From Streptosporangiaceae bacterium (GTDB lineage Bacteria > Actinomycetota > Actinomycetes > Streptosporangiales > Streptosporangiaceae): 47,643 bases of DNA. A program made the position numbers and the translations under genes. This document shows, piece by piece, positions 22,622-47,643 of the stretch. The stretch is from assembly GCA_030038295.1 (NCBI GenBank), contig JASHPF010000345.1, positions 1-47,643 on the forward strand. Reading direction: 5' to 3'. Every line of letters begins with the position of its first letter. Position 1 is the first letter of the stretch. The notes beneath the pieces are model-generated. The model saw nothing but the letters and a program-made list of their open reading frames with translations, had not been told where the DNA came from and ran no database searches.

Positions 22622-22639
22622 GACTGCCTCCACTATTTA

Positions 22640-25006: not shown

Positions 25007-25042
25007 CAGTCGGCGTGCGTCATCCGAGGGCTGCGGGCGCCC

Positions 25043-27323: not shown

Positions 27324-27332
27324 GAGACCTCC

Positions 27333-30354: not shown

Positions 30355-30449
30355 TCGCCAGCATCAATCGAGTCTGATGCGCGGGTCCGGCGCGCACGTT
30401 CTCGACATCCCACGGCGCTAAGCGTCAAGCGGCGGTTTTGAGTTGAGCG

Positions 30450-30467
30450 CTGGGCTGGTGGGCCCAG
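30450..30467. terminator. Candidate bidirectional hairpin terminator
   Basis: CTGGGC and GCCCAG form a perfect 6-bp stem with loop TGGTGG between the convergent LAL and hydrolase genes. There is no U-run, as is common in actinobacteria, so the call rests on position and stem only. Confidence 0.35.
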
Positions 30468-30478
30468 GCGAGGTACGG

Positions 30479-31279
30479 TCAGAAGCCCTTGTGGCGGAGC
30501 CAGGAAAGACACGCCTGAGCCACCTCGTGCCAGCCGGCATCGATGGTCAGCGAGTGACCGCGGTCACCGAATTCCAGCAGTTCCGTGGCTGCTGGCGAGT
30601 AGCGATACTGCTTCAGCGTTGCCTTGGTGATCGCTTCGGGAACGGTGTGATCCTGGCCGCCCATGATGAGAAGAAGCGGCCCGCGGGTTGGGTTTCGCGT
30701 GTCCACCTTGGCCGGCGAGTGCAGCGAGAAGTTCGCCGCAGCCGCCTCGAAGAGCGGTTTGCCGGGCGCTGGCACCACCCACTTGTCGTAGAGCTCGGCC
30801 GACTCCTCGTCGGTCAGGGTGTTCCCGAAGCTGTAACGGAACTGGTCCGCGGTAAGCATGACCGCGCGATGCCGATTGGCCGGGTTCTTGAACACCGGGA
30901 GGGTTGCCCGCAGGGACGACAACGGAACCGGAAGGACGCCCTTGATCTGTGCCGCGTCGATCGCAATGGCTGCCACGGCCCGGTCTTGCCCGAGCAGCTT
31001 CTCGGCAATCATGCCGCCGAAGGAGTGGCCGATCAGCACGGGAGAAGCGGGCAGGTCGTCGATGATCGCGGCGAAGTGCCCGACGACGTCGTCGATGCCC
31101 TTGTCGGCGACCGCGTCCGGATTGGCCCTGGCAAGTTGGACGGTCTCCTGATCGCCTGGCCACCCCGGCGCAAGGACGCGGTAGCCGGACTGCTCGAAGG
31201 TGGCCTCCCATGGCTCCCAGGAACTCTTGTGCAGCCAGAGGCCGTGGATGAATACGACCGGATGCGGCTTATCAGCCAT
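30479..31279 (-). CDS. Alpha/beta hydrolase
   Basis: A 266-residue hydrolase starting at ATG 31279 (MADKPHPVVFIHGLW). The oxyanion-hole strand VVFIHGLWLHKSSWEPW, nucleophile elbow IGHSFGGM, an acid-bearing strand LLLIMGGQDHTVPE and catalytic His in FGDRGHSLTID form a complete triad. The substrate is not evident. The track ORF begins at 31354, but the ATG at 31279 opens the domain. It stands alone, facing the LAL gene and divergent from an SDR gene. Confidence 0.9.
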   Translation of the reverse strand: MADKPHPVVFIHGLWLHKSSWEPWEATFEQSGYRVLAPGWPGDQETVQLARANPDAVADKGIDDVVGHFAAIIDDLPASPVLIGHSFGGMIAEKLLGQDRAVAAIAIDAAQIKGVLPVPLSSLRATLPVFKNPANRHRAVMLTADQFRYSFGNTLTDEESAELYDKWVVPAPGKPLFEAAAANFSLHSPAKVDTRNPTRGPLLLIMGGQDHTVPEAITKATLKQYRYSPAATELLEFGDRGHSLTIDAGWHEVAQACLSWLRHKGF

Positions 31280-31544
31280 CTGACCTGGCCTTTCATGGGT
31301 TTCCGTTGATCTGCTTCGGCCCGTGGGCTCGAGGGCTTCCGCCGTCGCTGCCAACGTAGGGAGATTGCGCTGCCGTCGGCTTCAGTCATCCGACTGCATG
31401 TGCACTATCCGAGTTGGCCAGCTGAGAGTCCGCCAGATTGCGTCGTTCGACCGAAGCCGGCGGGCCGTCACCTCAGCCAGGCTCGACTCGGCAGTGGCCT
31501 GCCCGGCGGCGTTGGGTATGACCCGGCTAAGGAGGCGGACCGCG

Positions 31545-32324
31545 ATGGACCTGGGCCTGGCCGGCAAGACGGCGGTCGTGACAGGCGGCAGCAAGGGGAT
31601 CGGGCTGGCCGTCGTCCGGGCCCTCGCCGGCGCGGGCGTGCACGTCGTGACGGGCGCCCAGCACTCATCGGCCGGCCTGGACGCGCTCACCGCCTCAGGC
31701 CGGGTGCAGGCGATCACGGTAGACCTGTCCGAGCCGTCGGGCCCCGGCGCGCTGATGGAGGCCGCCGGGGGGCGGATCGACATCCTGGTCAACAACGTCG
31801 GCAGCGCCCCGGCGCGGCCTGGCGGCTTTCTCAGCATCACCGACGAGGACTGGATCGCCACCCTCAACCTCGACCTCATGGCGGCCGTCCGGGCCTGCCG
31901 TGCCGTGCTACCGGCCATGCTCGCCGCCGGAGCCGGCGCCATCGTCACGATCTGCTCGGTCAATGCGCGCCTGCCCGACCCGGCCGTGCTCGACTACAGC
32001 ACCGCGAAGGCCGGGCTGGCCGGCTTCTGCAAGGCGCTGTCGAAGGAAGTCGGCCCCGCGGGGATCCGGGTCAACACCATCAGCCCCGGTCCCGTAGCCA
32101 CTGACCTGTGGCTTGGCGCCGAGGGAGTGGCCCAGACCGTGAGCCAGGCCACCGGATCTCAGCCGGACGAGGTCGCCAGGCAGGCCGCGGAGCAGATGCT
32201 CACCGGCCGGTTCACCCAGCCCGCCGAGGTCGCCGATCTGGTCCTCTTCCTCGCCAGCAGCCGGGCCGGGAACATTACCGGCGCCGACTTCACCATCGAC
32301 GGCGGCCTGGTCCCTACCTGGTAG
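31545..32324 (+). CDS. Short-chain dehydrogenase/reductase (classical SDR)
   Basis: A 259-residue NAD(P)-dependent oxidoreductase. Cofactor motif TGGSKGIG, structural NNVG, catalytic Ser in TICSVNA and the YSTAK dyad are all present, followed by RVNTISPGPVATDLW and the C-terminal ITGADFTIDGG. It starts at ATG 31545 after GGAGG. Substrate is probably an alcohol or beta-ketoacyl group. It is the intact counterpart against which the deleted SDR at 13.2 kb can be read. Confidence 0.93.
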   Translation: MDLGLAGKTAVVTGGSKGIGLAVVRALAGAGVHVVTGAQHSSAGLDALTASGRVQAITVDLSEPSGPGALMEAAGGRIDILVNNVGSAPARPGGFLSITDEDWIATLNLDLMAAVRACRAVLPAMLAAGAGAIVTICSVNARLPDPAVLDYSTAKAGLAGFCKALSKEVGPAGIRVNTISPGPVATDLWLGAEGVAQTVSQATGSQPDEVARQAAEQMLTGRFTQPAEVADLVLFLASSRAGNITGADFTIDGGLVPTW

Positions 32325-32359
32325 CCAGACACGCGGCGCGCCGACCTTGCGTTAACGGG

Positions 32360-32920
32360 TCACGGCTCCCGTCCGGCCCCGGTGTCCGCGCCGTGGGTGT
32401 CTTTGCCGATGCCGACGATCAGGCTCCACGCCGCCGCTACCTCCAGGGCGATGCCGAGCAGCATCGCGAACGCGAGGAGATAAAGCCCGCCGCCGTGGCC
32501 GGCGAGGAGGCTGATGCCCGCTCCGATACTGAGCAGCCAGGTTGTCGCCATGCCGAGCCACCGGACGAGCAGATCGACGGAGATGGGTGGTGGCTCGCGG
32601 CGCGCCGTCTGCAGCGACGACCAGGCGGTGTAGGCCACAGAGCCCGCCGACAACACGAGAATCTCCGTCGCCAGGGCAGCGAGCGGCTGGTCGGGCATGA
32701 GCACGAAAGCCGAGCCGACCGCGATCACGATCAGCCAGATCAGCAGGTACCGCGCCCGCGTGCGGAGCGTGAGGCTGTGCTGGAGATCTCGCAGTCGAAG
32801 CGAGAAAGCGATGAAGAACAGCCCTGTGAGGGTCGCCGCCGCCGTGCCCGTCAGCACGAAGAACGTGTCCCACGAGCCCGGGTCGTACGCGACGGAACGG
32901 GCCACGCTCGCGAAGGTCAT
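32360..32920 (-). CDS. Multi-pass membrane protein, unknown function
   Basis: A 186-residue protein with about five hydrophobic helices: FFVLTGTAAATLTGLFFIAF, YLLIWLIVIAVGSAFVL, LATEILVLSAGSVAYTAW, a segment around WLGMATTWLLSIGAGISLL, and LYLLAFAMLLGIALEVAAAW. No catalytic motif is visible. The N-terminal stretch is soluble and short. Convergent with the SDR gene, 35 bp away. I cannot assign a specific function. Confidence 0.82.
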   Translation of the reverse strand: MTFASVARSVAYDPGSWDTFFVLTGTAAATLTGLFFIAFSLRLRDLQHSLTLRTRARYLLIWLIVIAVGSAFVLMPDQPLAALATEILVLSAGSVAYTAWSSLQTARREPPPISVDLLVRWLGMATTWLLSIGAGISLLAGHGGGLYLLAFAMLLGIALEVAAAWSLIVGIGKDTHGADTGAGREP

Positions 32921-33060
32921 CCGTTACCCCTGTACCGCAGTCAACACGGCAATCTACCCGCAGGGGCACGGCCGCAGCCGCACGGTCGAGCGAACCCCGG
33001 TTCCCGCACGAGAGCCAGGGCAGCGACACGAGCAACTGACAGGACCCCGCGTCCATCGCG

Positions 33061-33543
33061 TCAGAGTGCGGGGCTTCGCCGTTCGATGAGGATCACGTCG
33101 CGCCAGGTGCCTCGGTGGCGGCCGATGCGCTCGCGGGTGCCGACATCGCGGAATCCGGCTTCGTGGTGGAGTGCCAGGCTGGCCGTGTTCTCGGGAAAGA
33201 TGCCCGACTGGATGGTCCAGATCCCGGCGGCCTCGGTGGACGTTATCAGCGCCGTCAGCAGCAGCCGGCCGGCCCCGCGGCGCCGGGCGGCGGGATCGAC
33301 ATACACCGAGTGCTCGACGACGCCTGCGTAGACGCAGCGGTCGGACACCGGGGAGGCGGCGACCCAGCCCAGGACCACGCCGTGGTCGGCGGCGACGTAC
33401 CGGTGGGCGGGTAGCTTCGCGGCGATGAAGTCTTCCCACGGAGGCACCCGGGTTTCGAAGGTGGCGTTGCCCTCGTCGATGCCCGCCTGGTAGATGGCCA
33501 GCACCGCGTCGGCGTGGGCGTTGGTCATGGTCTCGATGTGCAC
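33061..33543 (-). CDS. GNAT acetyltransferase (phosphinothricin acetyltransferase-like)
   Basis: A 160-residue GCN5-type N-acetyltransferase. IYQAGIDEGNATFETRVPPW is characteristic of the Pat/Bar subgroup, as are VYVDPAARRRGAGRLLLTALI (acetyl-CoA loop, Q/RxxGxG/A-like) and ESGIFPEN-like (SGIFPENTASLALHHEAGF). This subgroup acetylates amine groups of amino-acid-like toxins or methionine sulfoximine. The start is GTG 33543; the track ORF to 33984 is a shadow upstream. It sits 22 bp after the MFS exporter gene on the same strand, perhaps co-transcribed. Confidence 0.9.
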   Translation of the reverse strand: MHIETMTNAHADAVLAIYQAGIDEGNATFETRVPPWEDFIAAKLPAHRYVAADHGVVLGWVAASPVSDRCVYAGVVEHSVYVDPAARRRGAGRLLLTALITSTEAAGIWTIQSGIFPENTASLALHHEAGFRDVGTRERIGRHRGTWRDVILIERRSPAL

Positions 33544-33565
33544 GCGGCGTCTCCCACGAGCCGGC

Positions 33566-35101
33566 CTAGCTCGCGACGGCCTCGACCTGTGCCGGAGCCT
33601 GAGCCTGGCGGGCCAGCGGGCCGCGGCGGAACAGCGCTCCGCCGAGCACCGCGCCGCCGGCGAAGAAGGCCGACGTCCACCAGAACCCGACCGTGTACCC
33701 GTGCACGGCCGCGGCGGCCTCCAGCGCCCCGCGGGCCGCGGGCGAGGCGGCGATCGCCGAGCTGAGATGGCTCGCGACGTAGGCCGCGGCCGCGCTCGTG
33801 GCGATGGTGTTGAGCAGCGCGGTGCCGGTGGAGCCGCCGAGTTGCTGGCCGACGTTGATCGTGGCCGAGGCGACGCCGGCGTCGCGCGCGGCCATGCCGA
33901 AGGTGCCGGTGTTGATCGCCGCGGGCACCGTGGTACCGAGGCCCGCGCCGGTGACGACCAGTGGCCCGAGCACCGCACCGGCATACGAGGAGTGGACGCC
34001 GATCCGGGTGAGCCAGGCCATCCCGGCCGCCGCGACCAGGAGACCGACAGCCACGAGCGGCTTGGGCCCGGTGCGCGGCATCAGCACGATGTTGGAGACC
34101 TGACCGCACACGATGAGCATCAGGATGGCAGGCAGGAACGCCAGCCCGGTGGTCACTGGCGAGTAGCCGAGGATGGTCTGCAGGTAGTACGTCAGGAACA
34201 GGAACAGCCCGAACATCGCGGCCCCGACGATCAGGATGGTCAGAAAGGCCCCGCCCCGATTGCGGTCGAGCACAACCCGCGGCGGGAGCAGCGGACTCGG
34301 CGCGCGGAACTGCCACGCCGCGAACGCGGCCAGCAGCACACCGCCCGCGGCCAGGAACCCCCAGGACGAGGGTGCGCTCCAGCTGTGGGTCGCGGCGTTG
34401 GCGAGCCCGTAGACCAGGCAGAACATCGACCCCGATACCAACAGCACGCCGGGCACGTCAAGCCGGGCGCCTCGGCCCGACGGCCGTGCCGGTGACAGCA
34501 GCGCGGCCGCCCCGACCGCCGCCGCGGCGGCGAACAGGAGGTTCACGTACAAACACCAGCGCCAGCTGAGGTACTCGGTGAGCACGCCGCCGAGCAGCAG
34601 GCCCACGAGCCCGCCGCCGCCCGCGATGGCCCCGTAGACGCCGAAGGCCCGGCCCCGCTCCCGCGGATCACTGAACGTCGTGGTCAGCACCGACAGCGCC
34701 GCCGGTGCCAGCAGCGCGCCGAACGCTCCCTGACAGGCCCTGGCGACGATGAGCATCTCGAAGCTCACCGACGCACCGCCGACGGCCGAGGCTACCGCGA
34801 ATCCCGTCAGCCCCGTGAGGAACGTCAGCCGCCGGCCAAACAGGTCACCGAGCCGGCCGCCGAACAACAGCAGGCTGCCGAACGCCAGCGCGTAGGCCGT
34901 GATCACCCACTGCCGGTCGGCGTCGGTGAAGTGCAGCGCCCGCTGCGCCGACGGCAGCGCGATGTTCATGACGGTGATGTCCAGCACGATCATCAGCTGG
35001 GCGAGCCCCACCACGCCCAGCACGAACCAGCGCCGCCGGTCGTGCTGGCCGGCGGGCATCGCGGCGCGAGGAACGCGAGTTGCAGACATCACGGCCGCCA
35101 A
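33566..35101 (-). CDS. MFS drug/H+ antiporter, DHA2 (EmrB/QacA) type
   Basis: A 511-residue 14-helix exporter: QLMIVLDITVMNIALPSAQ in helix 1, motif A FGGRLGDLFGRRL, and GVYGAIAGGGGLVGLLLGG. The sequence parallels the 22.9-kb MFS protein closely in layout. Upstream of a GNAT gene on the same strand. A start at the internal Met of MSATRVPR is also possible. Substrate unknown. Confidence 0.92.
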   Translation of the reverse strand: MAAVMSATRVPRAAMPAGQHDRRRWFVLGVVGLAQLMIVLDITVMNIALPSAQRALHFTDADRQWVITAYALAFGSLLLFGGRLGDLFGRRLTFLTGLTGFAVASAVGGASVSFEMLIVARACQGAFGALLAPAALSVLTTTFSDPRERGRAFGVYGAIAGGGGLVGLLLGGVLTEYLSWRWCLYVNLLFAAAAAVGAAALLSPARPSGRGARLDVPGVLLVSGSMFCLVYGLANAATHSWSAPSSWGFLAAGGVLLAAFAAWQFRAPSPLLPPRVVLDRNRGGAFLTILIVGAAMFGLFLFLTYYLQTILGYSPVTTGLAFLPAILMLIVCGQVSNIVLMPRTGPKPLVAVGLLVAAAGMAWLTRIGVHSSYAGAVLGPLVVTGAGLGTTVPAAINTGTFGMAARDAGVASATINVGQQLGGSTGTALLNTIATSAAAAYVASHLSSAIAASPAARGALEAAAAVHGYTVGFWWTSAFFAGGAVLGGALFRRGPLARQAQAPAQVEAVAS

Positions 35102-35256
35102 TCTGGGGTCGCCGAGATTCGGGTGATTTCCCCCTCAAGAGCCCCTTGCCAGCTCCAGCAAATCACACCGACCGTGCAACGAGGAGTCACGGTGCCAGTA
35201 CCCTCACCGAAGACCGGATTGCTTAGGACGGCCGTCTTCGGGGGATCAGGAGGGTT

Positions 35257-36381
35257 ATGACCGGCCCGGCTGCAGTGCCCGGACTGAACCGCAGTGATGT
35301 GCGCGGCCCGGGACTCACCAGGGTCCGCGCGGGCACGGGGTTTCGATATCTTGGCGCGGACGGGGCCGAGATCACCGATTCGGACACGCTCCGGCGCATT
35401 CGAGCGCTTGTGCTGCCGCCTGCCTGGACCGGTGTCTGGATCTCCCCTGACGCGCTCGGTCACATCCAGGCCACGGGGATTGATAGCCGCGGGCGCACTC
35501 AGTACCGCTACCACGAGCTGTGGCGACAGCAGCGGGACGAGCAGAAGTACGAGCACATGCTGCGATTCGCGGCAGCCCTTCCCGGGCTGCGCGACACGAC
35601 CCGGCGCGACCTCGGCCGTCGGCCGCTCGACCGGGGCAGAGTGGCGGCCGCCGCCGTCCGACTGATCGACCTCGGGCTGTTCCGGGTGGGCGGCGAACGC
35701 TACGCCGAGCTAGATCATCACTACGGTGCCGTCACGCTGGAGAAGCGCCATGTCAGCATCCGGCGGGATGGCCTGCACTTCGACTATGTCGGCAAGGAGG
35801 GCAAGGAACGAGCCATCACGGTCACCGACGCCGCCGTGCTGCCCACCGTGCGCGCGCTTGCCCGCGCCGATAACGGGCTGAGCGCGCTGTTCTGCTTCCG
35901 CGACGCGCGCAGCGCCTGGAATCCGATTCACTCGCACGACGTGAGCGCGTATATCGCGGAGAACTCAGGCGGTCACTTCACCGCCAAGGAATTCCGCACG
36001 TGGAATGCCACGCTGCTGATGGCCTTGCTGCTGGCGGCGGCCGGCCCGCCGGCCTCCGAGCGGGCGGCGAGGACCGCGATCAGGGAATCCATCCGGGGAG
36101 TGGCGCAGTGGCTCGGCGACACGCCGGCGGTGGCGCGCGCGTCGTACATCGACCCGCGGATCGTCAGCCACTACGAGTCAGGAAGCCTGGCCCGGGTTCC
36201 GATCCAGTCTGCCCGGCTTCCGGTCGACGAGTCAGCCGAGCACGCGGTGGCGGCCCTGCTGGCATCCGCGGTCGATGAGACCCTTGTCCCACCTCGCCAG
36301 CGGACCTCCCAGACGGCGGTAGACCGAGCGCGCGCTGCGGGTCAGCAGCGGTCGTCGGCCGGGTCGCCGACCAACGCGTAA
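35257..36381 (+). CDS. Eukaryotic-type DNA topoisomerase IB
   Basis: A 374-residue poxvirus-like type IB topoisomerase, which relaxes supercoils through a transient 3'-phosphotyrosine. The N-terminal domain carries FRYLGADGAEITD, LRRIRALVLPPAWTGVWI and ATGIDSRGRTQYRYHE. Catalytic features are an Arg near ALPGLRDTTRRD, the KEGKER loop, a HFTAKEFRTWNAT helix (the HxxK/R region) and the nucleophile Tyr in SYIDPRI. GGAGGG precedes the ATG. Bacterial members are common in actinobacteria and dispensable for growth. Its 3' end overlaps the convergent MFS gene by 40 nt. Confidence 0.93.
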   Translation: MTGPAAVPGLNRSDVRGPGLTRVRAGTGFRYLGADGAEITDSDTLRRIRALVLPPAWTGVWISPDALGHIQATGIDSRGRTQYRYHELWRQQRDEQKYEHMLRFAAALPGLRDTTRRDLGRRPLDRGRVAAAAVRLIDLGLFRVGGERYAELDHHYGAVTLEKRHVSIRRDGLHFDYVGKEGKERAITVTDAAVLPTVRALARADNGLSALFCFRDARSAWNPIHSHDVSAYIAENSGGHFTAKEFRTWNATLLMALLLAAAGPPASERAARTAIRESIRGVAQWLGDTPAVARASYIDPRIVSHYESGSLARVPIQSARLPVDESAEHAVAALLASAVDETLVPPRQRTSQTAVDRARAAGQQRSSAGSPTNA

Positions 36382-37967
36382 GCCGACAGCGACTCGGCCG
36401 TGGCGGCGGCTTCATCCGCCGGGCCCGCGCCGGGATGCTGGCCCGCCGCCCTGGCGGGCAGGAAGATCACCGCGGCGAGCGCGGCCATGGCCGTCGCGCC
36501 CGCGGCCACGAACGAACCCTGGTGAAAGCCGGACATGTAGGCGGCGCGGACGGCAGCCACGGCCAGCTCCCGCAGCCCAGCGGGAGCGTGCCCGGCGATT
36601 TCCAGGCCGGCGGCGACAGACTGGCGCGCCTGCGCGGCCACGGGTGCGGGCACCCCGACGCTAGCCAGCGCGGAACCGAGGTGGCTCCCGTACGCGGAGC
36701 TCAGGACGGAGCCGACGATCGCCACTCCGAGCGTCCCGCCAACCTCCCTGGTGGTGTCGTTGACCGCCGAGCCGACGCCCGCCTTGCCCAGCGGCAGCGC
36801 GCCCATGATGGCTTCGGTGGCCGGGCTGCTGGTGAGTCCGAGGCCGGCTGCCATCAGCGCCATTGCCACGATGATCCGCCCCCAGTACGGAGAGTCGGCG
36901 CCGGTGCCGGCGGCGACCACGAAGCCCGCGCTCATCAGGACGAGGCCCGCGGCGACGACGGCCTTGGTCCCCATGCGCTTCATCAGCGTGATCGCGACCG
37001 GGGAGACCGCCCCCGTCACGATGGCGAACGGGAGGGTCGCGACCCCGGCGCGCAGCGGGTCATAGCCGCGGACCAGCTGGAAGTACTGGGTGACCAGGAA
37101 GATGAAGCCGAACAGGCCGAAGAAGGCCAGGGCGATCGCGCCACTCGCCGCGGTGAACCGCATGTTGCGGAACAGCCGCACGTCCAGCATCGGGTCAGGG
37201 CGCCGCAGCTGCCATCCGACGAACGCGGCTAGCGTCACCACGGACCCGGCAAAGCCGCCGATCGTGACGGCCGAGCCCCAGCCGTGAGTGGGCGCCTCGA
37301 TCACGGTCCACGTCAGCAGGCCCACGCCGGCCACGGAGAGCAGCGCGCCGAGCGGGTCAAAGCGGCCGGCGCGCGGGTCCCGCGACTCGGGCAGCAGCCA
37401 CATCCCGGCTGCGAGCGCGACCGCGACGATCGGCACGTTGACGAGGAAGACCGAGCTCCAGGCGAAGTGCCGCAGCAGCAGACCGCCCGTTACCGGGCCG
37501 ATGGCGACGGCCAGCCCGGACACACCAGACCAGATGCCGATCGCGGTCGCCCGCTCGCGAGCGACCGTAAATACGTTCGTGAGCAGGGCGAGCGTCGCCG
37601 GGTAGATCAGCGCCGCCGCCACGCCCATCGCGGCGCGCGCGGCGATCAGCTCGCCGGTACTGCGCGACAGCGCCGCGGCCACCGACGTGACCGCGAACAG
37701 CACGAGCCCGGCCTGCAGGGCCCGGCGTCGGCCGAGCCGGTCACTGACGTTGCCGCCGACGATCAGCAATCCGGCGAACACCAGGCTGTAGGCGTCGACG
37801 ACCCACTGCAGATCCTGGGTGGAGGCGGCTAGCCGCCGGCTGATCGTCGGCAGCGCGACGTTGACGATCGTGTTGTCGACAACGACAAGGAGCACACTGA
37901 GACACAGCACCGCCAGAATCCACCAGCGTCGGCTGTCTGGCCTGCGCGCCAGGATGGCCGTTGCCAT
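36342..37967 (-). CDS. MFS drug/H+ antiporter, DHA2 (EmrB/QacA) type
   Basis: A 541-residue 14-helix exporter: LSVLLVVVDNTIVNVALPTIS, motif A-like NVSDRLGRRRALQAG, and the mid-protein GIWSGVSGLAVAIGPVTGG. Divergent from a TetR gene, the usual arrangement for a drug-inducible efflux pump repressed by its neighbour. The AT-rich 37968-38051 interval holds the promoter. Its 3' end overlaps the topoisomerase gene on the other strand. Confidence 0.92.
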   Translation of the reverse strand: MATAILARRPDSRRWWILAVLCLSVLLVVVDNTIVNVALPTISRRLAASTQDLQWVVDAYSLVFAGLLIVGGNVSDRLGRRRALQAGLVLFAVTSVAAALSRSTGELIAARAAMGVAAALIYPATLALLTNVFTVARERATAIGIWSGVSGLAVAIGPVTGGLLLRHFAWSSVFLVNVPIVAVALAAGMWLLPESRDPRAGRFDPLGALLSVAGVGLLTWTVIEAPTHGWGSAVTIGGFAGSVVTLAAFVGWQLRRPDPMLDVRLFRNMRFTAASGAIALAFFGLFGFIFLVTQYFQLVRGYDPLRAGVATLPFAIVTGAVSPVAITLMKRMGTKAVVAAGLVLMSAGFVVAAGTGADSPYWGRIIVAMALMAAGLGLTSSPATEAIMGALPLGKAGVGSAVNDTTREVGGTLGVAIVGSVLSSAYGSHLGSALASVGVPAPVAAQARQSVAAGLEIAGHAPAGLRELAVAAVRAAYMSGFHQGSFVAAGATAMAALAAVIFLPARAAGQHPGAGPADEAAATAESLSAYALVGDPADDRC

Positions 37968-40212: not shown

Positions 40213-41154
40213 TTATCGCGTCTTGACCAGCTTCGCCGCGAAGAACGCCTCGAAGTGCTCGGTAGGGAGCACGCGCAGAGCGTTCCCCAGCGCCGGCGCG
40301 AACCGGTAGCCGCGCCACGCGCCGAGGCCAGGGCGGAAGTTCGGCTGGTCGAGCAGGGCCGGGCGCACGTCGAGGTCGTCGTGGCGGCGAAGTACCTGGC
40401 TCACCGGGAACTCGTTCTCCTCCGGTGCGATCGTGCAGGTGGAGTACACCATCGTGCCGCCAGGCCGGAGCAGCCGGTACGCCGCCTCCAGCATTCTGGT
40501 CTGCCGGTACTTGTACCGATCGATGCGCTCCTGCGACCAGTACCGCAGCGCGTCCGAGCGGCTCAGGTCGATGCGTCCCTCGCCCGAGCACTGCACGTCG
40601 AGCAGGATCCGGTCAAACGTGTCGGCGGGCAGTTCCTTGTCGAGGTACTGCGCGGGGATAGAGGTCAGCTTCTCGTACGGCACCCGGTACAACCGGGCCA
40701 GGTCGCGCAGCTTGTCCGCGCGCGGGGCGATCGCGTCGTTGAGCCAGAGCCGTGCCGCGCCGTGGGTGCGCGCGGCGATGTGGAAGGCCTTGCCGCCGGG
40801 CGCAGCCGCCGTGTCCAGGATCAGCTCACCGGGCTGCGGGTCGAGCAGGACGACCGGGATGAGGCTCGAGGCGTTCTGGATGTAGACCAGGCCCTGCTCG
40901 GCCAGGGGGATGGCGGCGGCGCATCCAGTGTCGGCCAGGCAGAAGTACGTGTCGGCGCACCACGACACGGGCTCCACCTCCGGCATCACCGCGACCAGGT
41001 CCGCCAGGATCTCCTCGGCCGGGGCGGCCAGCCGGTTCACCCGCACCGTGCTGGACCGCGGGCCGGCCAGCAGCCTCGGCACCTCCGCTGGACGTACCCC
41101 GTACACCTCGGCGATGCGGCCGGTGAACGCGGCGCGCTTACGTGGGTCCGTCAT
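40213..41154 (-). CDS. RNA (cytosine-C5) methyltransferase, RsmB/RsmF/NSUN family
   Basis: A 313-residue SAM-dependent m5C methyltransferase. Motif I is LDTAAAPGGKAFHIA, motif IV is DVQCSGEGR and motif VI STCTIAPEEN with the catalytic Cys; classical motif IV is DAPCSGxG, so a Pro-to-Gln change is present. The C-terminal RFAPALGNALRVLPTEHFEAFFAAKL ends the fold without a PUA extension. RsmF acts on 16S C1407 and RsmB on C967. The ATG at 41154 sits 10 nt after queD. Clustering with the que/tgt genes suggests a decoding-site or tRNA target; the target cannot be read from sequence. Confidence 0.9.
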   Translation of the reverse strand: MTDPRKRAAFTGRIAEVYGVRPAEVPRLLAGPRSSTVRVNRLAAPAEEILADLVAVMPEVEPVSWCADTYFCLADTGCAAAIPLAEQGLVYIQNASSLIPVVLLDPQPGELILDTAAAPGGKAFHIAARTHGAARLWLNDAIAPRADKLRDLARLYRVPYEKLTSIPAQYLDKELPADTFDRILLDVQCSGEGRIDLSRSDALRYWSQERIDRYKYRQTRMLEAAYRLLRPGGTMVYSTCTIAPEENEFPVSQVLRRHDDLDVRPALLDQPNFRPGLGAWRGYRFAPALGNALRVLPTEHFEAFFAAKLVKTR

Positions 41155-41164
41155 AGCCGGGCCG

Positions 41165-41518
41165 TCACTCGCCGCGGTAGACGCAGCCCGACGTGCACGT
41201 CTCGCGAACCACGACGGCCGACAACGGCAGCCCAGGCTGGAGCCGGGTCCAGATCCACTGCGCCAGCACCTCGCTGGTCGGGTTCTCGAGCCCGGGCACC
41301 TCGTTGAGAAAGTTGTGGTCGAGCTGGGCGTGCAGCGGCGCGAACGCCGACGCGATGTCCCCGAAGTCTGCGACCCAGCCGGTGTCCGGGTCGACCGGCC
41401 CGGCGATGTGCACCTCGACCCGGTAGGTGTGACCGTGCAGGCGCCCGCACTTGTGCCCGGCCGGCACGCGGGGGAGCTGATGCGCTGCGTCGAACCGGAA
41501 CTCGCGGAAGATCTCCAT
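41165..41518 (-). CDS. queD: QueD: 6-carboxytetrahydropterin synthase
   Basis: A 117-residue PTPS-family enzyme converting dihydroneopterin triphosphate to 6-carboxytetrahydropterin, step 2 of preQ0 synthesis. Zinc ligands and catalytic Cys are in FRFDAAHQL and [13 protein letters not shown] (CxxxHGH is the QueD hallmark), with ADFGDI and LDHNFLN following. Its ATG is at 41516-41518, directly beside the queC stop. Full length for the family. Confidence 0.95.
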
Positions 41519-42220
41519 CTAGAGCGCCGGGTCCGCGAGGCCGGCTTCGGCGAAGCCGCGCGCGCGCAGCAGGCAGGAGTCGCACGCGCCGCACGGCCGA
41601 CCGTCGACCGGGTCGTAGCAGCTGTGGGTAAGGCTGTAGTCGACGCCAAGCGCCAGGCCGCGCCGAATGGTCTCGGCCTTGGTCAGGCTGATCAGAGGCG
41701 TGTGAATGGTCAGCTTCTGGCGGCCCTCGACCGCGGCCTTTGTCGCGAGGCGCGCCATGGCCTGATACGCCTCGATGAACTCCGGCCGGCAGTCCGGGTA
41801 GCCGCTGTAGTCGATCGCGCTGACCCCGATGTAGATGTCGGCGGCGTCGAGCACCTCTGCCCACGCCAGCCCGAATGACAGGAAGATCGTGTTGCGAGCC
41901 GGTACGTAGGTGACCGGGATCTCGGCGCCGAGGTCGTCGCCGGGCGCGTGGCGGGGGACGCGCACTGCTCCGTCGGTGAGCGCAGAACCGCCAAAGGCGC
42001 GCAGGTCGATGTCGGCGATCCGATGCTCGGTCGCGCCCAGCTGCTCCGCCACCCGGCGCGCCGCGGCCAGCTCCACCTCGTGTCGCTGCCCATACCGGAA
42101 ACTCAGCGCATAGGCCTCGAAACCGTCGCTGCGCGCGATCGCCAGCACCGTCGACGAGTCGAGCCCACCGCTGAGCAGCACTACCGCCCTTGGTGGCCGG
42201 CCCGTGCCGTCTGAAGCCAC
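41519..42220 (-). CDS. queC: QueC: 7-cyano-7-deazaguanine (preQ0) synthase
   Basis: A 233-residue ATP-dependent enzyme that turns 7-carboxy-7-deazaguanine and ammonia into preQ0. The PP-loop is [12 protein letters not shown], with [12 protein letters not shown] and [13 protein letters not shown], and the zinc cysteines lie in [20 protein letters not shown]. The track starts at 42301, but GTG 42220 opens the domain and is preceded by the purine-rich AGGCGAGA. It is the first gene of the minus operon, divergent from queF across a 119-bp region. Essential for the other que genes in the island to matter. Confidence 0.95.
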
Positions 42221-42275
42221 GATTCTCGCCTGCCTTACCGTCGCGCGTCGGCTCGTTTCTGGCAGCCTACCAGCG

Positions 42276-42304
42276 CGTTTGCGGCAGGCTCCGGCGCGCA
42301 AACG
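42276..42304. promoter_or_regulatory. Inverted repeat in the queC/queF divergent region
   Basis: CGTTTGCG (42276-42283) and CGCAAACG (42297-42304) pair perfectly around a 13-nt spacer. An alternative pairing AGCCT with AGGCT partly overlaps the left arm. The position suits a shared operator for the two divergent operons; an RNA role is less likely on the queF side, which looks leaderless. Confidence 0.5.
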
Positions 42305-42327
42305 GGGGCCACCGCGGGCCGCGCGAC

Positions 42328-42333
42328 TACACT
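42328..42333 (+). promoter_or_regulatory. -10 box (TACACT) for a leaderless queF transcript
   Basis: TACACT matches the TANNNT -10 pattern and ends 6 nt before the queF ATG at 42340. No Shine-Dalgarno precedes this ATG, so the mRNA probably begins at the start codon itself. This would drive the whole six-gene plus-strand operon. Confidence 0.55.
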
Positions 42334-42339
42334 GGCCGC

Positions 42340-42726
42340 ATGTCTGATGCTGCCCGGACTGGCACGGTGAGCGTGCTCGGCGCCGATGTCCGCCGGCCCA
42401 TGGATCACCTGGAGTGGTTCCCGGCCCCGGCGAACTGCACGCGGGTCCGGTTCAGCTCGGCAGAGCTGAGCTCGGTATGCCCGATCACCGGCCAGCCCGA
42501 TCTGTCGTCGGTCGTCATCGAGTACGAGCCCGGCGAGCGCTGCATCGAGTCAAAGTCGCTGAAGCTCTATCTGTGGTCGTTCCGCGACCGGCCGGTCTTC
42601 GCGGAGGCGCTGGCCGCCGAGATCGCCGCGGAGGTGCAGCGGGCGGTCGAGCCTCGGTCGGTCCGGGTCGTGCTCACCCAGAACGTCCGGGGCGGCATCG
42701 TGACCGAGGCGACGGCGGAACTCTAG
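42340..42726 (+). CDS. queF: QueF: NADPH-dependent preQ0 (7-cyano-7-deazaguanine) reductase
   Basis: A 128-residue unimodular QueF that reduces the preQ0 nitrile to the preQ1 aminomethyl group. The catalytic Cys and Asp lie in [11 protein letters not shown], and [14 protein letters not shown] carries the NADPH motif that QueF-like amidinotransferases lack, so reductase activity is favoured. A point to note is PVFAEAL where B. subtilis-type enzymes have FHE: the His is replaced. The track extends to 42190, but ATG 42340 fits the leaderless promoter. The stop overlaps the QueE GTG by one base. Confidence 0.92.
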
Positions 42727-43490
42727 TGCCCAGCCGGCTCGGTTCGACGCTGGCCAGGTCCGACGTCCCGGTGGCCGGGCCCGGTGAGCTCATCCTGAGC
42801 GAAGTCTTCGGTCCCACCTTCCAGGGCGAGGGCCGGTCGCTCGGCCAGCGGGTGGGCTTTGTCCGACTCGGCACCTGCAACCTCGACTGTGGCCGGGGGC
42901 CAGGCGCGACGTGGGCGTGCGACACGCCGTACACGTGGGACTGGGAGCACTACAGTCCGGGCGACGAGCTCGCGGTGCGCTCGGTCGACGACGTGGTCGC
43001 GCAGCTGACCGACATGGCCGTCGCGGCGATCGTGGTGACGGGCGGCGAGCCGCTCATCCAGCAGCGCCGCCTGGTGCCGCTGCTGCGGGCCGCGGCCGAT
43101 CGCGGGTGGGCGGTGGAGGTCGAGACGAACGGCACGATCGCGCCGCTGCCTGAGGTCGTCGGGCTGGTCAGCCGGTTCAACGTGTCACCGAAGGTACGCG
43201 GCAGCGGCGTCCCGGCGGCCCGCGCGCTGCGGCCCCGCGCGCTCGCCGCCTTCGGTGACACCGGCAAGGCGGTCTTCAAGTTCGTCGCGAGCGAGCCAGC
43301 CGAGCTGGACGAGATCGGCCGGGTCGCGGCGCGCTGGCGGCTGACCCCGATCATGATCATGCCGGCCGGGACGACGGCCGACGAGATAGTCCGGGTCGCC
43401 AGGGAGCTCGCCGATCCGGTCCTGGTCCGCGGCTGGGACCTCACCATCCGGCTGCACGTGCTGCTGTGGGGGGACGAGCGAGGCCGGTGA
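42726..43490 (+). CDS. queE: QueE: 7-carboxy-7-deazaguanine synthase (radical SAM)
   Basis: A 254-residue radical-SAM enzyme making CDG from 6-carboxytetrahydropterin. LILSEVFGPTFQGEGRSLG and VRLGTCNLDC open the fold, followed by ACDTPYTWDW, IVVTGGEPLIQ and VEVETNGT. The cluster cysteines read CNLDC then ACDTPY: CX3C-X9-C. This differs from the usual CX3CX2C, as QueE enzymes are known to vary here. GTG 42726 overlaps the queF stop. The stop overlaps the tgt GTG (GTGA). Order is queF-queE, so a later enzyme is encoded before an earlier one. Confidence 0.93.
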   Translation: MPSRLGSTLARSDVPVAGPGELILSEVFGPTFQGEGRSLGQRVGFVRLGTCNLDCGRGPGATWACDTPYTWDWEHYSPGDELAVRSVDDVVAQLTDMAVAAIVVTGGEPLIQQRRLVPLLRAAADRGWAVEVETNGTIAPLPEVVGLVSRFNVSPKVRGSGVPAARALRPRALAAFGDTGKAVFKFVASEPAELDEIGRVAARWRLTPIMIMPAGTTADEIVRVARELADPVLVRGWDLTIRLHVLLWGDERGR

Positions 43491-44590
43491 GCCACAGCGT
43501 GCTGCCGACCCGGCGCGGCGATATCAGCCTTCCGCAGTTCGTGCCCGACGCCACCAGGGCGGTGGTGCGCGGACTTCCGACGGGCGCGCTGCCGCGCACC
43601 GGAGTCGAAACCATCCTCGTCAGCACCGCACATCTGATGAGCCAGCCGGGTACCTCGGTCGTGCGGGCGCTCGGCGGCGTGCACGGGTTCATGGGCTGGA
43701 CCGGCCCGGTGATCTCGGACTCTGGCGGGTTCCAGGCGTTCTCGCTGCTGACCGGGCAGAAGGGGCTGGCGACGGTATCGGACGCGGGGCTGTCCTACCG
43801 GTTCTCGCCCAAGCAGCGGTTCCGCGACCTGACGCCGAAAAGCTGTATCGAGACCCAGCTGCACCTCGGCGCGGACGTCGTCTACTGCCTCGACTACTGC
43901 ACCCATCCGCTGGCGCCGGACGCCGAGCAGGAGAAGAGCGTCGCCCTGACCATCCGCTGGGCCGCCGAGTGCCGGGCCGTGTTCGACCGGCTGGTCGCCG
44001 ACACGCCGGTCGAGCAGCGCCCGAAGCTGTTCGCGGTGGTGCAGGGCGGCCAGCGGGCCGATCTGCGGGCCCGGTGCGCGGACGCGCTGGTCGACCTCGG
44101 CTTCGACGGCTACGGCTTCGGCGGCTACCCGGTCGCGGCGGGTCAGCTCGTGGCCGAGGTCGAGCTGACGGCCCGGCTGCTGCCGCCCGGATCGGTGCTG
44201 CACGGCCTCGGCATCGGGACACCGGAGAGCCTGGTCGCAGCGTGGCGCTCGGGATACACGATCTTCGACTGCACGCTGCCGACGCGCAACGCGCGGCGCG
44301 GCGTGCTGTACACGAGCATGGACACGGCCAACCTGGACGGCGATGGGAGGGTCAGCAGGATCGCCCGCATGTCCGACGAGAAGTGGGTCCGGGCCCCCGG
44401 CCCGGTCGATCCCGACTGCGACTGCGAGCTGTGCACCGGCTACAGCGCCGGCTACCTCGCGCACCTGTTCCGGGTCGAAGACTCGCTGGCGCACACCCTG
44501 GCTTCCGCGCACAACCTGCGCTTCTACACCCGCCTGACGGCCGCCCTCCGGGGGCATCCGGCGGGCGCGTTGCCACGAGCCGTGCGATGA
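43487..44590 (+). CDS. tgt: tRNA-guanine transglycosylase
   Basis: A 367-residue TGT that exchanges G34 of GUN-anticodon tRNAs for a 7-deazaguanine. The catalytic loop ISDSGGFQAFSL, the DYCTHP and KLFAVVQGG segments, and FDCTLPTRNARRG with the second catalytic Asp are all present. The zinc site CDCELCTGYSAGYLAHL with a distal His before NLRFY is intact. The base-binding GGLAVG loop of E. coli-type TGT reads YGFGGYPVAAG, so its substrate preference may differ. Length suits the bacterial enzyme. GTG 43487 overlaps the queE stop, and its stop overlaps the next ATG (ATGA). Confidence 0.93.
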   Translation: MSHSVLPTRRGDISLPQFVPDATRAVVRGLPTGALPRTGVETILVSTAHLMSQPGTSVVRALGGVHGFMGWTGPVISDSGGFQAFSLLTGQKGLATVSDAGLSYRFSPKQRFRDLTPKSCIETQLHLGADVVYCLDYCTHPLAPDAEQEKSVALTIRWAAECRAVFDRLVADTPVEQRPKLFAVVQGGQRADLRARCADALVDLGFDGYGFGGYPVAAGQLVAEVELTARLLPPGSVLHGLGIGTPESLVAAWRSGYTIFDCTLPTRNARRGVLYTSMDTANLDGDGRVSRIARMSDEKWVRAPGPVDPDCDCELCTGYSAGYLAHLFRVEDSLAHTLASAHNLRFYTRLTAALRGHPAGALPRAVR

Positions 44591-45465
44591 CCCCCGACGT
44601 CGCCGAGCAGGCGGTCATCGGCCGGATCAGGGCCGCCGCCAAGTACCGGGGCGTGCACGCCGACACGATCGCCGACATCGTGCGGCAGGAAAGCGGCAAG
44701 GCCGCGAACGCCACCGACCTCGAACGGCGGGCCCGGCTCAAGCTGCACAGGGTCGTCGCCGGGTATCTGCTGACGGGACGCATCACGCGCCTGGTGCGCG
44801 ACCTCGCCGGCGCCGCCGAGAGCGACGCGGCCCGCCGCGAGCTCTGCCGCGCGGTGCTCGCCGCGCACTTCTCGACTGCCGAGCGGCTACCTGACCTGGA
44901 CCGGTTCTATCCCGCCCTGTTCGGCGCCATCGGGCCGGTGCGCTCGGTCGCCGACCTCGCGTGCGCGCTGAACCCGTTCACCGTGCCGTGGCTGCGCGAC
45001 GTGACCGACGCCGAGTACGCGGGTTATGACCTGAACCTGGCTTACGTGGAGCCGGGCCGCGCGTTCCTCGCCGACCGGTATCCGGGCTGTTCGGTGGCGC
45101 ACCACGACGTGCTGGTCGGGCCGGACGCGATCACCGCGGACGTGGCGCTGCTGCTGAAGACCTACCACAACATCGAGGACCGGCAGCCCGGCGCCGGGCT
45201 GCGGCTGGTCACCGAGCTGGGCAGCCCGGTCGTGGTGGTGTCCTTCCCGGTCCGCACCATGACTGGTCGGCCGGCGCCGTTCAGCTGGCGGCTGCTGGCC
45301 GGGCTCACCGGCTTCGCGGCCAGTCGGGGCTGGCAGGCCGACCGGCTGGAGCTGCCGACCGAGCTGGTCGTCGTCGTCCGCAAGGCCAGCGTCGCCGTGC
45401 AGGCCAGCTCCGTCCGGCCCGGCGATGCCGCCGAGGAGGCCGGTGCCGATGGCGCGGCCGGCTGA
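44587..45465 (+). CDS. Arm/FmrO-type 16S rRNA m7G1405 methyltransferase paralogue (first)
   Basis: A 292-residue SAM methyltransferase resembling the aminoglycoside-resistance family of Sgm, FmrO and RmtA. Shared marks are an N-terminal three-helix RNA-binding part (KYRGVHADTIADIV, RARLKLHRVVAGYL), then STAERLPDLDRFY, motif I DLACALNPFTVPWL, LLLKTYHNIEDRQ and VVVVSFPVRTM-TGR. The resistance enzymes have DLACGLNP, so one glycine is Ala here. They methylate N7 of G1405, blocking 4,6-disubstituted 2-deoxystreptamine drugs. Overlaps tgt by ATGA. The target in this operon is unknown; 16S h44 is the first guess. Assignment is from motif recall. Confidence 0.82.
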   Translation: MTPDVAEQAVIGRIRAAAKYRGVHADTIADIVRQESGKAANATDLERRARLKLHRVVAGYLLTGRITRLVRDLAGAAESDAARRELCRAVLAAHFSTAERLPDLDRFYPALFGAIGPVRSVADLACALNPFTVPWLRDVTDAEYAGYDLNLAYVEPGRAFLADRYPGCSVAHHDVLVGPDAITADVALLLKTYHNIEDRQPGAGLRLVTELGSPVVVVSFPVRTMTGRPAPFSWRLLAGLTGFAASRGWQADRLELPTELVVVVRKASVAVQASSVRPGDAAEEAGADGAAG

Positions 45466-46255
45466 TGAGGAAGCCGTGCTCCAGCGGGTGCTGGCGTCGG
45501 CGAAGTACGCGGGACTGGATGAGGGCTTCGTCCGCCGGATAGCCGGCGAGGCATCCGCCCGGTTCCGCGACCAGAACGCCGCGGCCAGGTACGCCAGGCG
45601 AAAGCTGCACCAGGCGGTCGGCGCGTTCGTGACCGGGTCCCTCGGCGACGCGGTGCGGGCGTGCGTCAGCGCTATCGCGGCCGGCGCGCCGGTGCGGGAC
45701 GCGAGCCTGGCGGCCATGCGCCGCCACGCGTCCACGGCCGAGCGGGCAGCGGTCATGGACGCGTTCTACCGGCAGATCGAGGCGTGGTGCGGCCGGCCGG
45801 CTACCGTCGCGGACCTCGGCTGCGGGCTCAGCCCGCTGGCGATCCCGTGGCTCGCGACCAGCCCGGGCGCGACGTACTGGTGCTGTGACGTCGACCGCGG
45901 CCTGACCGGCGCGCTGCCCGCTCTCAGCGAGCCGTTCGGTGTCACCGTGGTCGCGCAGGCGCAGGACCTGGTGAGGCCGGCCGGCCTGCCGTCCGCCGAG
46001 CTGGTCCTGCTGCTCAAGGCCGTCACCACGCTGGAGCAGCAGCGCACCGGCGCGGCGCGGGACGTGCTGGCCGCGCTGGAAGCGCCGCGAGTGGTGGTGT
46101 CGCTGCCCCGCGCCAGCCTGTCGGCCCGGCGCCGGTACACGGCGGATCCGGCGCAGGTGATCGGCTCGGTGACCGCCGACTCGGGCTACGTGCTGGCCGG
46201 CCACGCCACGTTCGGCGACGAGTCGCTCTACCTGCTCGCGCGGTCGGCGCGATGA
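45449..46255 (+). CDS. Arm/FmrO-type 16S rRNA methyltransferase paralogue (second, tandem)
   Basis: A 268-residue paralogue of the preceding protein: AKYAGLDEGFVRRIA, ARYARRKLHQAVGAFV, STAERAAVMDAFY, motif I DLGCGLSPLAIPWL, LLLKAVTTLEQQ and VVVSLPRASLSARRR. It keeps the SAM glycine that the first copy lacks, and its ERL motif became ERAAV. The ATG 45449 follows GAGGAGG by 9 nt and overlaps the first paralogue by 17 nt; its own stop overlaps the rsmI-like ATG (ATGA). Two divergent copies side by side suggest different RNA sites or a heterodimer. The internal ATG at 45425 is a less likely start. Confidence 0.8.
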   Translation: MARPADEEAVLQRVLASAKYAGLDEGFVRRIAGEASARFRDQNAAARYARRKLHQAVGAFVTGSLGDAVRACVSAIAAGAPVRDASLAAMRRHASTAERAAVMDAFYRQIEAWCGRPATVADLGCGLSPLAIPWLATSPGATYWCCDVDRGLTGALPALSEPFGVTVVAQAQDLVRPAGLPSAELVLLLKAVTTLEQQRTGAARDVLAALEAPRVVVSLPRASLSARRRYTADPAQVIGSVTADSGYVLAGHATFGDESLYLLARSAR

Positions 46256-46956
46256 CCGGCCGGCTCACGCTCGTGGGCACGCCGATCGGCAACCTCGGTG
46301 ACGTCAGCGACCGGGCCCGCCGGGCGCTGGCGGCGGCGGACGTGATCTGTGCGGAGGACACCCGGCGCACCAGGAAGCTGCTGACCGCCTATGACATCCA
46401 CCCGCCGCTGCTGGTGTCGGTCCGTCAGCACAACGAGCAGCGACAGGCGGCGCGCGTGCTGCAGTGGCTCGCCGAGGGCCGCGCGGTGGCCTACGTGACC
46501 GACGCGGGCATGCCGGTGCTCTCCGACCCGGGCGAGCGGCTGGTGCGGGCGGTCCTCGCGGCGGACGGCGCGGTCGGCGTGGCGGCTGGTCCGGACGCGG
46601 CGACCAGCGCGCTGCTGCTGAGCGGCCTGCCCGCCGCCCGGTGGTGCTTCGAGGGCTTCCTGCCGGTAAAGGGCCGGAGCCGCCGGCAGCGGATCGCCGC
46701 CCTCGCGGGCGAGCCGCGCACGGCCGTGCTGTTCGAGGCGCCGCACCGGCTGCTGCGGACGCTGGCGGAGCTGGCGGCGGTGGTCGGCCCGGACCGGCCG
46801 GTGGCCGTCGCCAACGACCTCAGCAAGCGGCACGAGCGAGTGTGGCGGGGGCCGATCGGGGCGGTGCTCGCGCAGCTTCAGGGCAGCGAGCCGCGCGGCG
46901 AGTTCGTCGTCGTGCTGGCCGGCGTCAGCGCCGTAGCGCGGCCGCAAACGTCGTGA
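46252..46956 (+). CDS. rsmI: RsmI-like 16S rRNA ribose 2'-O-methyltransferase (C1402)
   Basis: A 234-residue member of the SAM tetrapyrrole-methylase fold, shorter than the ~280-residue housekeeping RsmI. Signatures are LVGTPIGNLGDVSDRARRAL, CAEDTRRTRKLL, VTDAGMPVLSDPGERLVRA, FEGFLPVKGRSRRQR, FEAPHRLLRTL and LSKRHERVWRGP. The loop usually PGPSA reads GPDAATSA, and the C-terminal domain is reduced. RsmI O-methylates C1402 in the decoding site. In this operon it is the last gene and may be a paralogue of a housekeeping copy elsewhere. Overlaps the second Arm-like gene by ATGA. Confidence 0.9.
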   Translation: MTGRLTLVGTPIGNLGDVSDRARRALAAADVICAEDTRRTRKLLTAYDIHPPLLVSVRQHNEQRQAARVLQWLAEGRAVAYVTDAGMPVLSDPGERLVRAVLAADGAVGVAAGPDAATSALLLSGLPAARWCFEGFLPVKGRSRRQRIAALAGEPRTAVLFEAPHRLLRTLAELAAVVGPDRPVAVANDLSKRHERVWRGPIGAVLAQLQGSEPRGEFVVVLAGVSAVARPQTS

Positions 46957-47643
46957 TGATCGTCTGGCCGCAGCCGGTCAGGATCGACTCGGGGTGGAAC
47001 TGCACCCCCTCGATGGGCAGCCGGGCGTGCCGCAGGCCCATCGGCAGTCCGCCGCGGGCGCGGGCCGTGACCCGCAGGCACGCCGGGAGCGTGGCTTCGG
47101 CCACCATCAGCGAGTGGTACCGGGTCGCCGGGAACCGGCGCGGCAGGCCGGCCAGCACCCCGTGACCGTCGTGGCTGATGACTGATGTCTGGCCGTGGAC
47201 GGGCCGCGGCGCCCGGACGATGCGCGCACCGAAGCACGCGGCGATCGCCTGATGGCCGAGACACACCCCGAGCACCGGAACGGGCTGCGCCGCCGCCGCA
47301 CAGACCCTGACTACCTCGATGCTGATGCCGGCCTCGTCGGGCGCGCACGGGCCGGGTGAGATCACCACGCCCGTGGGGGCGAGCGCCGCGACCTCATCGG
47401 CGGTGACCTCGTCATTGCGCACCACCTCGACGGGACAGCCTGCCTTCGCCAGGTAGTGCACGAGGTTGAAGGTGAACGAGTCGTAGTTGTCGATGACGAC
47501 GACCGGAGCTGGCCGGCGCGTGCCGCGCATCGCCCCGCCGTAGCCGCCCGGCCGCGGGACCGAAGGTCCCGCCAGCGTGGCGCGAGCCGGCTCCGGCTCC
47601 GCATCGGCTGCCAGCGCGGCGGTCAGCAGCGCGGTGATCGGAC
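46925..47643 (-). CDS. Glutamine amidotransferase domain (TrpG/PabA), frame open to window edge
   Basis: The recognisable domain (VVVIDNYDSFTFNLVHYL, SPGPCAPDEAG, GVCLGHQAIAACFG with the catalytic Cys, ATRYHSL, VQFHPES with His/Glu) is a complete type-1 glutaminase supplying ammonia to chorismate enzymes. The track begins at Met 47530. The same frame, however, is open without a stop to 47643 (ITALLTAALAAD, EPEPARATLAG), consistent with fusion to a component I/aminodeoxychorismate synthase domain as in PhzE or TrpEG enzymes. Whether the start is 47530 or beyond the window is unresolved. It converges on the rsmI-like gene, overlapping by 32 nt. Confidence 0.8.
   Translation of the reverse strand, partial: PITALLTAALAADAEPEPARATLAGPSVPRPGGYGGAMRGTRRPAPVVVIDNYDSFTFNLVHYLAKAGCPVEVVRNDEVTADEVAALAPTGVVISPGPCAPDEAGISIEVVRVCAAAAQPVPVLGVCLGHQAIAACFGARIVRAPRPVHGQTSVISHDGHGVLAGLPRRFPATRYHSLMVAEATLPACLRVTARARGGLPMGLRHARLPIEGVQFHPESILTGCGQTIITTFAAALRR

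Follow-up and report, generated by a model that had tools for sequence, protein, structure and literature searches.

An island joining Arm-family 16S rRNA methyltransferases to a specialised Tgt in Streptosporangiaceae: a candidate decoding-site modification module with relatives in other phyla and on resistance plasmids

Introduction

Methyltransferases of the Arm/Rmt group give ribosomes high-level resistance to aminoglycosides of clinical importance, and the source of the acquired genes is unsettled. Their site in helix 44 of 16S rRNA, G1405, lies among others that are methylated by RsmI and RsmH (C1402) or RsmF (C1407), and enzymes of the Sgm type are known to be encoded singly. Here we describe an island of nine genes at 40213-46956 of a 47,643-nucleotide stretch (the window, an entire contig) from a Streptosporangiaceae bacterium, in which two Arm-family proteins (Arm1 and Arm2) are encoded together with a Tgt, an RsmI, an RsmF-like protein and enzymes for the synthesis of preQ1.

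The nearest described relatives of this island are found on plasmids. According to a review, rmtG shares an operon with rsmH, tgt and an rsmI-like gene (rmtG operon; PMC9311965, PMC3904158), an rmtD-tgt unit is recorded in a published paper, and in the open-access portion of the literature we found no explanation of the role of Tgt in such units. The claim of an earlier note on this DNA, that no system of this composition had been described, is therefore partly overtaken by these published units; the gene neighbourhood itself is already known, if unexplained, and what is new, as far as we have checked, is its conservation across phyla and the pocket signature of its Tgt.

With the window Tgt as tblastn query, clinical plasmids yielded Tgts beside rmtG, rmtD1, rmtD2 and rmtB2, and rmtE2, accompanied by a truncated Tgt, came from a second search; IS91/ISCR and IS26 elements border the plasmid copies. 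In the rmtG operon of Klebsiella and Enterobacter plasmids (pKP13f and others) the Arm-family methylase immediately follows a Tgt from the subfamily of the window Tgt, as in the window, and the C1402 methylase RsmH stands in front, with a truncated RsmI behind (rsmH-tgt-rmtG-rsmI'); the window shares this linkage of Arm, module-type Tgt and C1402 methylase. It differs from the rmtG operon in having two Arm genes, a full RsmI, an RsmF-like protein that replaces RsmH and its own preQ1 genes, and its contig is of chromosomal type, with no mobile element noticed adjoining the island. The rmtD-tgt, rmtE2-tgt and rmtB2-tgt units (6411TF, 2964TF, pMY458-rmtE, p12100-NDM) also carry a Tgt at or nearly beside the Arm gene, with the same aromatic-Pro pocket, but unlike the window they have no complete RsmI; a metallophosphoesterase gene intervenes in the rmtB2 unit, and the 5' end of the rmtE-linked tgt is missing. 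RsmI fragments were looked for behind rmtD and rmtE and were not found. The producer self-resistance methylases Sgm and FmrO have the PF07091 family and the conserved Arg/Asp/Asp/Lys in common with the window Arms, which differ in their pairing with Tgt and RsmI and, for Arm1, in forming a clade of its own. These comparisons place several acquired Arm/Rmt genes within an RNA-modification module that is old and includes a specialised Tgt.

Taking into consideration what was observed directly, namely (i) the gene identities, (ii) the cross-phylum linkage, (iii) the separate Tgt subfamily and its coexistence with canonical Tgts, and (iv) two modules embedded in biosynthetic clusters and a fusion of Arm2 to RsmI, our best overall explanation is that of a 16S decoding-site modification module, of the aminoglycoside-resistance kind, with a preQ1-inserting Tgt. 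We consider this explanation as a whole somewhat probable, and its parts differ in strength: that the island is an A-site/aminoglycoside-resistance module is clearly probable, while an action of its Tgt on 16S rRNA is less likely than not.

Results and Discussion

Arm proteins and their helix 44 partners

Gene calls and profiles agree with the nine-gene RNA-modification island that the earlier note had outlined, including its overlapping start and stop codons. The plus strand encodes QueF-II, a divergent QueE, Tgt, Arm1, Arm2 and RsmI, with overlaps of 1 bp (QueF/QueE), 4 bp (QueE/Tgt), 4 bp (Tgt/Arm1), 17 bp (Arm1/Arm2) and 4 bp (Arm2/RsmI); QueC, QueD and an RsmB/F-type 5-methylcytosine (m5C) methyltransferase are on the minus strand.

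Arm1 (44587..45465, plus strand) and Arm2 (45449..46255, plus strand), both annotated as FmrO/Rmt-family 16S rRNA 7-methylguanosine (m7G) methyltransferases, are by profile and residue conservation true members of the FmrO/Arm family, as had been supposed. PF07091 was matched far above its cut-off by both (E 4e-66 and 8e-34), a sequence search matched them to Sgm (1e-24 and 6e-28) and other Rmt structures, and the NCBIfam Rmt equivalog scored 151.6 and 160.8 bits, both below its cut-off of 250. The family-invariant residues R115, D163, D189 and K206 (chain numbering; native Sgm numbering is 7 lower), conserved in 34-35 of 35 proteins, are kept in Arm1 and Arm2, and we take this R/D/D/K set of the FmrO family to be functional. 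G1405 is the predicted target of the module Arms, whose methylation of its N7 position in helix 44 of the 30S subunit would block 4,6-linked aminoglycosides.

In the tree, window Arm1 groups with the Arm1 of Actinoallomurus, Microtetraspora and a 'Chlorobiota' metagenome-assembled genome (MAG) and its relative (support 100/96), and Arm2 falls among the remaining Arm proteins, where deep branches are poorly resolved. Arm2 and RsmI of Actinoallomurus soli form one open frame of 614 residues with a long low-complexity linker (L013:9692-11536). A separate observation from the same tree is that the acquired RmtC is sister to the Chlorobiota-type module Arm2 (96/97; L016:3533-4324, L066:10902-11696), a possible lead to the origin of RmtC.

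The last gene of the plus strand (46252..46956) encodes a module copy of RsmI, the 16S rRNA C1402 2'-O-methyltransferase family (TIGR00096 210.2 bits, above the cut-off of 167.9), and is predicted to methylate C1402. A second, weaker RsmI-like match lies elsewhere in the genome, and many carriers of the module have a second RsmI. The module RsmI of Armatimonadota and of the Chlorobiota MAG forms a clade separate from the other RsmI of the same genomes (98/94), and that of Microtetraspora belongs to a different lineage; since its lineage differs and RsmH accompanies rmtG, the C1402 methylase was apparently recruited more than once. A C-terminal truncation of RsmI was dropped as a module trait, the canonical copies in the compared set being short as well.

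The m5C RNA methyltransferase at 40213..41154 (minus strand) is a candidate for the C1407 region of helix 44. It matches the PF01189 family (E 1e-36), its nearest solved relative is the rRNA methylase 3m6u (phmmer 3e-43), and motif VI STC is present, as is the motif IV Cys, in DVQCSG rather than the usual PC. The RsmF equivalog reached 164 bits against a cut-off of 690, with a length of 313 aa against 443-480, and among module carriers the RsmF-like gene is confined to the window's genus.

Sgm and RmtC have been reported to block RsmF at C1407, and ArmA to block RsmI at C1402 (PMC12406665). Because Arm enzymes are reported to block neighbouring methylations in this way, an RsmI, RsmH or RsmF-like protein beside an Arm gene looks like a means to keep them. 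RsmI at C1402 and, in the window's genus, the RsmF-like protein at C1407 may thus compensate by restoring the neighbouring methyl groups, which could limit the cost of resistance; partners of this kind suggest that the natural modules are equipped to make up for the fitness lost through G1405 methylation.

The module Tgt: clade, pocket and substrate

Module-type Tgt (43487..44590, plus strand) matches PF01702 with E 4e-82 and scores 273.5 bits with TIGR00430, below the cut-off of 306.75. Its catalytic aspartates and zinc site are those of canonical bacterial Tgt, and it is 37.5% identical to a solved bacterial Tgt; in the pocket alignment Asp102, Asp156, Gln203, Asp280 and the zinc Cys are kept. 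The Arm-linked Tgts differ from canonical ones by extra loops, by a replaced 231/232/235 switch and by their separate position in the tree, where chromosomal and plasmid sequences together form one clade (24 sequences, 100/100). Overall they retain the catalytic Asp, Gln203 and the zinc Cys, with one exception at Cys304.

In the Tgt of Zymomonas, the peptide at 231/232 is turned one way for guanine and the other way for preQ1, with Glu235 to stabilise it, and the amide of residue 232 reaches guanine N7 through a water molecule (PMC3660597). This canonical switch, Leu231-Ala/Ser232 with Glu235, is present in 17/17 canonical Tgts, bar one Val231, and in 0/25 Arm-linked Tgts; an aromatic residue at 231 with Pro232 and loss of Glu235 is found in all 25 Arm-linked sequences (the 24 of the tree and the rmtE fragment; a fragment at locus L051 was left unscored) and in 0/17 canonical ones. 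In the window Tgt, Tyr214-Pro215 (codons 44126-44131) takes the place of Zymomonas 231-232. Since Pro at 232 has no amide hydrogen, the described switch presumably cannot operate, and the altered pocket, together with the canonical Tgt that most non-actinobacterial carriers also have, makes a substrate other than the tRNA wobble base at least as likely as that base.

Canonical Tgt is also present in 17/18 non-actinobacterial carriers, which makes the module Tgt unlikely to be their G34 enzyme. The actinobacterial carriers have the module Tgt as the only Tgt found, and their islands supply their own preQ1 genes, of which QueF points to preQ1. The preQ1 made by QueC, QueD, QueE and QueF would go to a dedicated, re-specialised Tgt, and this enzyme would insert it in place of an encoded guanine of an RNA; as target we favour a guanine of the helix 44 region over tRNA G34. 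Extended to all Arm-linked Tgts, this would make them rRNA guanine transglycosylases that put preQ1 into helix 44 next to m7G1405, a second step in resistance of the rmtB2/D/E/G type; we advance the extended form as a possibility on the doubtful side. We know of no 7-deazaguanine in rRNA, and an insertion in helix 44 would be the first, if true; 7-deazaguanine chemistry, known from tRNA and DNA, would then reach the ribosome as well.

The earlier note had proposed one programme that remodels the tRNA wobble base and the A-site together. Its A-site part is well supported, but its wobble part is unproven, given the canonical Tgt of most non-actinobacterial carriers and the rebuilt pocket. In that form the module Tgt would be a second wobble enzyme, which places preQ1 or Q at G34 and keeps Arm-altered ribosomes accurate, so that resistance and wobble modification would be coupled. 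Membership of the Tgt family with intact catalytic residues, the lack of another Tgt in the actinobacterial carriers, a QueA-family gene elsewhere in the genome of 3/4 actinobacteria and reports of Arm-induced miscoding all speak for it. Most non-actinobacterial carriers, however, already own both canonical Tgt and QueA, the Enterobacteria that carry the plasmids have a tgt of their own, and the pocket is altered in every Arm-linked Tgt; we regard a wobble role as rather unlikely. The island indeed lacks queA, which had been reported absent; a divergent member of the QueA family (222 bits) is nevertheless encoded at another place in the genome.

The same pocket bears on another possibility, that the module Tgt processes the product of the Arm enzymes by accepting m7G1405 and exchanging it for preQ1, which would put a bulky, positive group at that same position, or, as an eraser, for guanine. 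The NH of residue 232 (now Pro) and Glu235, described as readers of the N7 side of guanine, are both lost, the adjacency of Tgt and Arm is strict, and from general knowledge m7G is a good leaving base. Against this, rmt genes suffice where no tgt accompanies them, the substrates of TGT enzymes are exposed loops or tRNA that has been opened whereas G1405 is paired in helix 44, and we know of no precedent for m7G processing by a Tgt. We consider such processing improbable and prefer preQ1 insertion at a helix 44 guanine.

Linkage across phyla

The linkage is not peculiar to the window's genome, a point on which the earlier note's case depended: besides the plasmids, Tgt and Arm-family genes are neighbours in four Streptosporangiales genomes, in Armatimonadota, and in both the 'Chlorobiota' MAG and its relative. 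The nearest named relatives are the Streptosporangiales MAG JOPF063 (G001), Microtetraspora sp. NBRC 13810 (G017) and Actinoallomurus soli WRP6H-15 (G107). FmrO is rare, with 5/343 genomes of the family positive, and 397 genomes sampled across the phylum gave no convincing further case; FmrO matches in G066 and G581 were set aside as chance or remote, the former resembling an RsmC-type protein. A scan of the named genome collection used one narrow pattern and returned 5 loci, so that the distribution is under-sampled. Among 291 scanned Armatimonadota genomes, 16 were FmrO-positive, and Tgt lies directly upstream of Arm in all 16; RsmI is directly upstream of Tgt in 13, two have no RsmI there and in one the contig ends within Tgt. 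The usual order in that phylum is RsmI-Tgt-Arm, and in the 'Chlorobiota' MAG and its relative it is Arm1-RsmI-Tgt-Arm2.

The module proteins Tgt, Arm and RsmI give concordant distances (r = 0.73-0.93). A co-transfer of two independent resistance or modification functions, in which gene order has no functional meaning, would fit the patchy occurrence of the module in the family and the IS91/ISCR and IS26 elements around the plasmid copies. It does not fit the same gene set and conserved order in three phyla, the overlapping genes, the Arm2-RsmI fusion, vertical co-inheritance in Armatimonadota or a pocket signature that is in all Arm-linked and no canonical Tgts, and we hold it to be very improbable.

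Two further loci features were recorded. A short GNAT-type acetyltransferase-like gene, possibly for drug or base acetylation, precedes RsmI in about six Armatimonadota modules (L054, L057, L058, L060, L061, L063), two of them Pfam-confirmed. In another genome of the window's family (G042, L009:6999-10849), queC-queE-queD lie beside a remote Arm-like protein (61 bits, Rmt model) and a relative of archaeosine-type TgtA (TIGR00432 202 bits, below its cut-off), with queF not nearby; this locus may couple preQ0 insertion with Arm-type methylation.

Aminoglycoside setting and helix 44

In Microtetraspora, the module lies about 20 kb from a 2-deoxy-scyllo-inosose synthase gene (1e-75 to the solved 2d2x against 3e-50 for the best dehydroquinate synthase), in a cluster that also holds aminotransferases, deacetylases and glycosyltransferases. 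In Actinoallomurus, an APH(3') and similar enzymes are encoded some 10 kb from the module. Both modules sit in aminoglycoside-type biosynthetic clusters, and self-resistance, which the earlier note had raised as a role of the island, is plausible there. For the window's own organism it was set aside, because no 2-deoxy-scyllo-inosose synthase or other 2-deoxystreptamine gene was found in its genome.

The embedding of two islands in biosynthetic clusters could also point to a 7-deazapurine natural-product pathway, of which the que genes and Tgt would be members and the methyltransferases the self-resistance; preQ0 genes do feed 7-deazapurine pathways in actinomycetes. Yet both clusters resemble those for aminoglycosides, tailoring genes of the toyocamycin type were not seen next to the window island, and most carriers have no such cluster next to the module, which leaves this pathway hardly probable at all.

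Several observations weigh against a decoding-site resistance module with a Tgt active on 16S rRNA. Acquired Rmt enzymes confer resistance without Tgt, which is dispensable for the known phenotype, and the two-Arm state is not universal, as JOPF063 has one Arm. The 2-deoxy-scyllo-inosose synthase, clear only in Microtetraspora, was not found in Armatimonadota or in the window's assembly, which is 87% complete. Helix 44 is ordinary in the four Armatimonadota carriers with readable 16S and singles out no target base; an altered helix 44 in carriers was accordingly rejected, a pattern search elsewhere having given mostly chance matches. Finally, distances of the module Tgt and the host's canonical Tgt are correlated in Armatimonadota (r = 0.89), unlike those of a typical resistance cassette. 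That the module Tgt tracks the canonical Tgt of its host implies an old module, passed on mainly by vertical descent in this phylum, and for the same reason co-inheritance is weak as proof of joint function.

preQ1 genes, assembly and surroundings

QueD, 6-carboxytetrahydropterin synthase (41165..41518, minus strand), scores 108.7 bits with TIGR03367, above the cut-off of 89.25, and QueC, preQ0 (7-cyano-7-deazaguanine) synthase (41519..42181, minus strand), 199 bits with TIGR00364, above 150.3, with alternative upstream starts up to 42301. Gene boundaries leave a divergent intergenic region (42182..42366) between the two gene strings, in which Rfam and promoter scans found no Rfam RNA family and no sigma-70-like site; the island as a whole likewise gave no Rfam match, and a preQ1 riboswitch and other known RNAs were rejected on this ground. 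QueF-II, which reduces preQ0 to preQ1 (42367..42726, plus strand), scores 99 bits with TIGR03139, above 86.9. The QueE-like radical S-adenosylmethionine 7-carboxy-7-deazaguanine synthase (42726..43490, plus strand) has TIGR03365 as its best model, at 78 bits, below the cut-off of 206; it is far more divergent than the QueE of Actinoallomurus and Microtetraspora, and its Cys spacing, C-x3-C-x9-C, departs from the usual patterns.

The assembly is fragmented (423 contigs, 6% contaminated), and Arm1 and Arm2 are its only FmrO genes. The same-genus MAG JOPF063 has the same island at locus L008, apart from the single Arm gene, with a Tgt 87% identical; mis-assembly is unlikely given this matching arrangement. 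A phage origin was rejected, as matches in phages and viral contigs are Tgts of ~30-38% identity with no Arm gene, and so was a defence system, PADLOC matches being negligible (the RsmF-like protein weakly matches mad2).

Downstream, a PabA/TrpG-type glutamine amidotransferase gene (46925-47530, minus strand) is convergent with RsmI, the last 32 bp of which it overlaps. Upstream of the island, the region 18393-37967 encodes a UvrA-like protein of 840 aa and three drug efflux transporters of the EmrB/QacA type.

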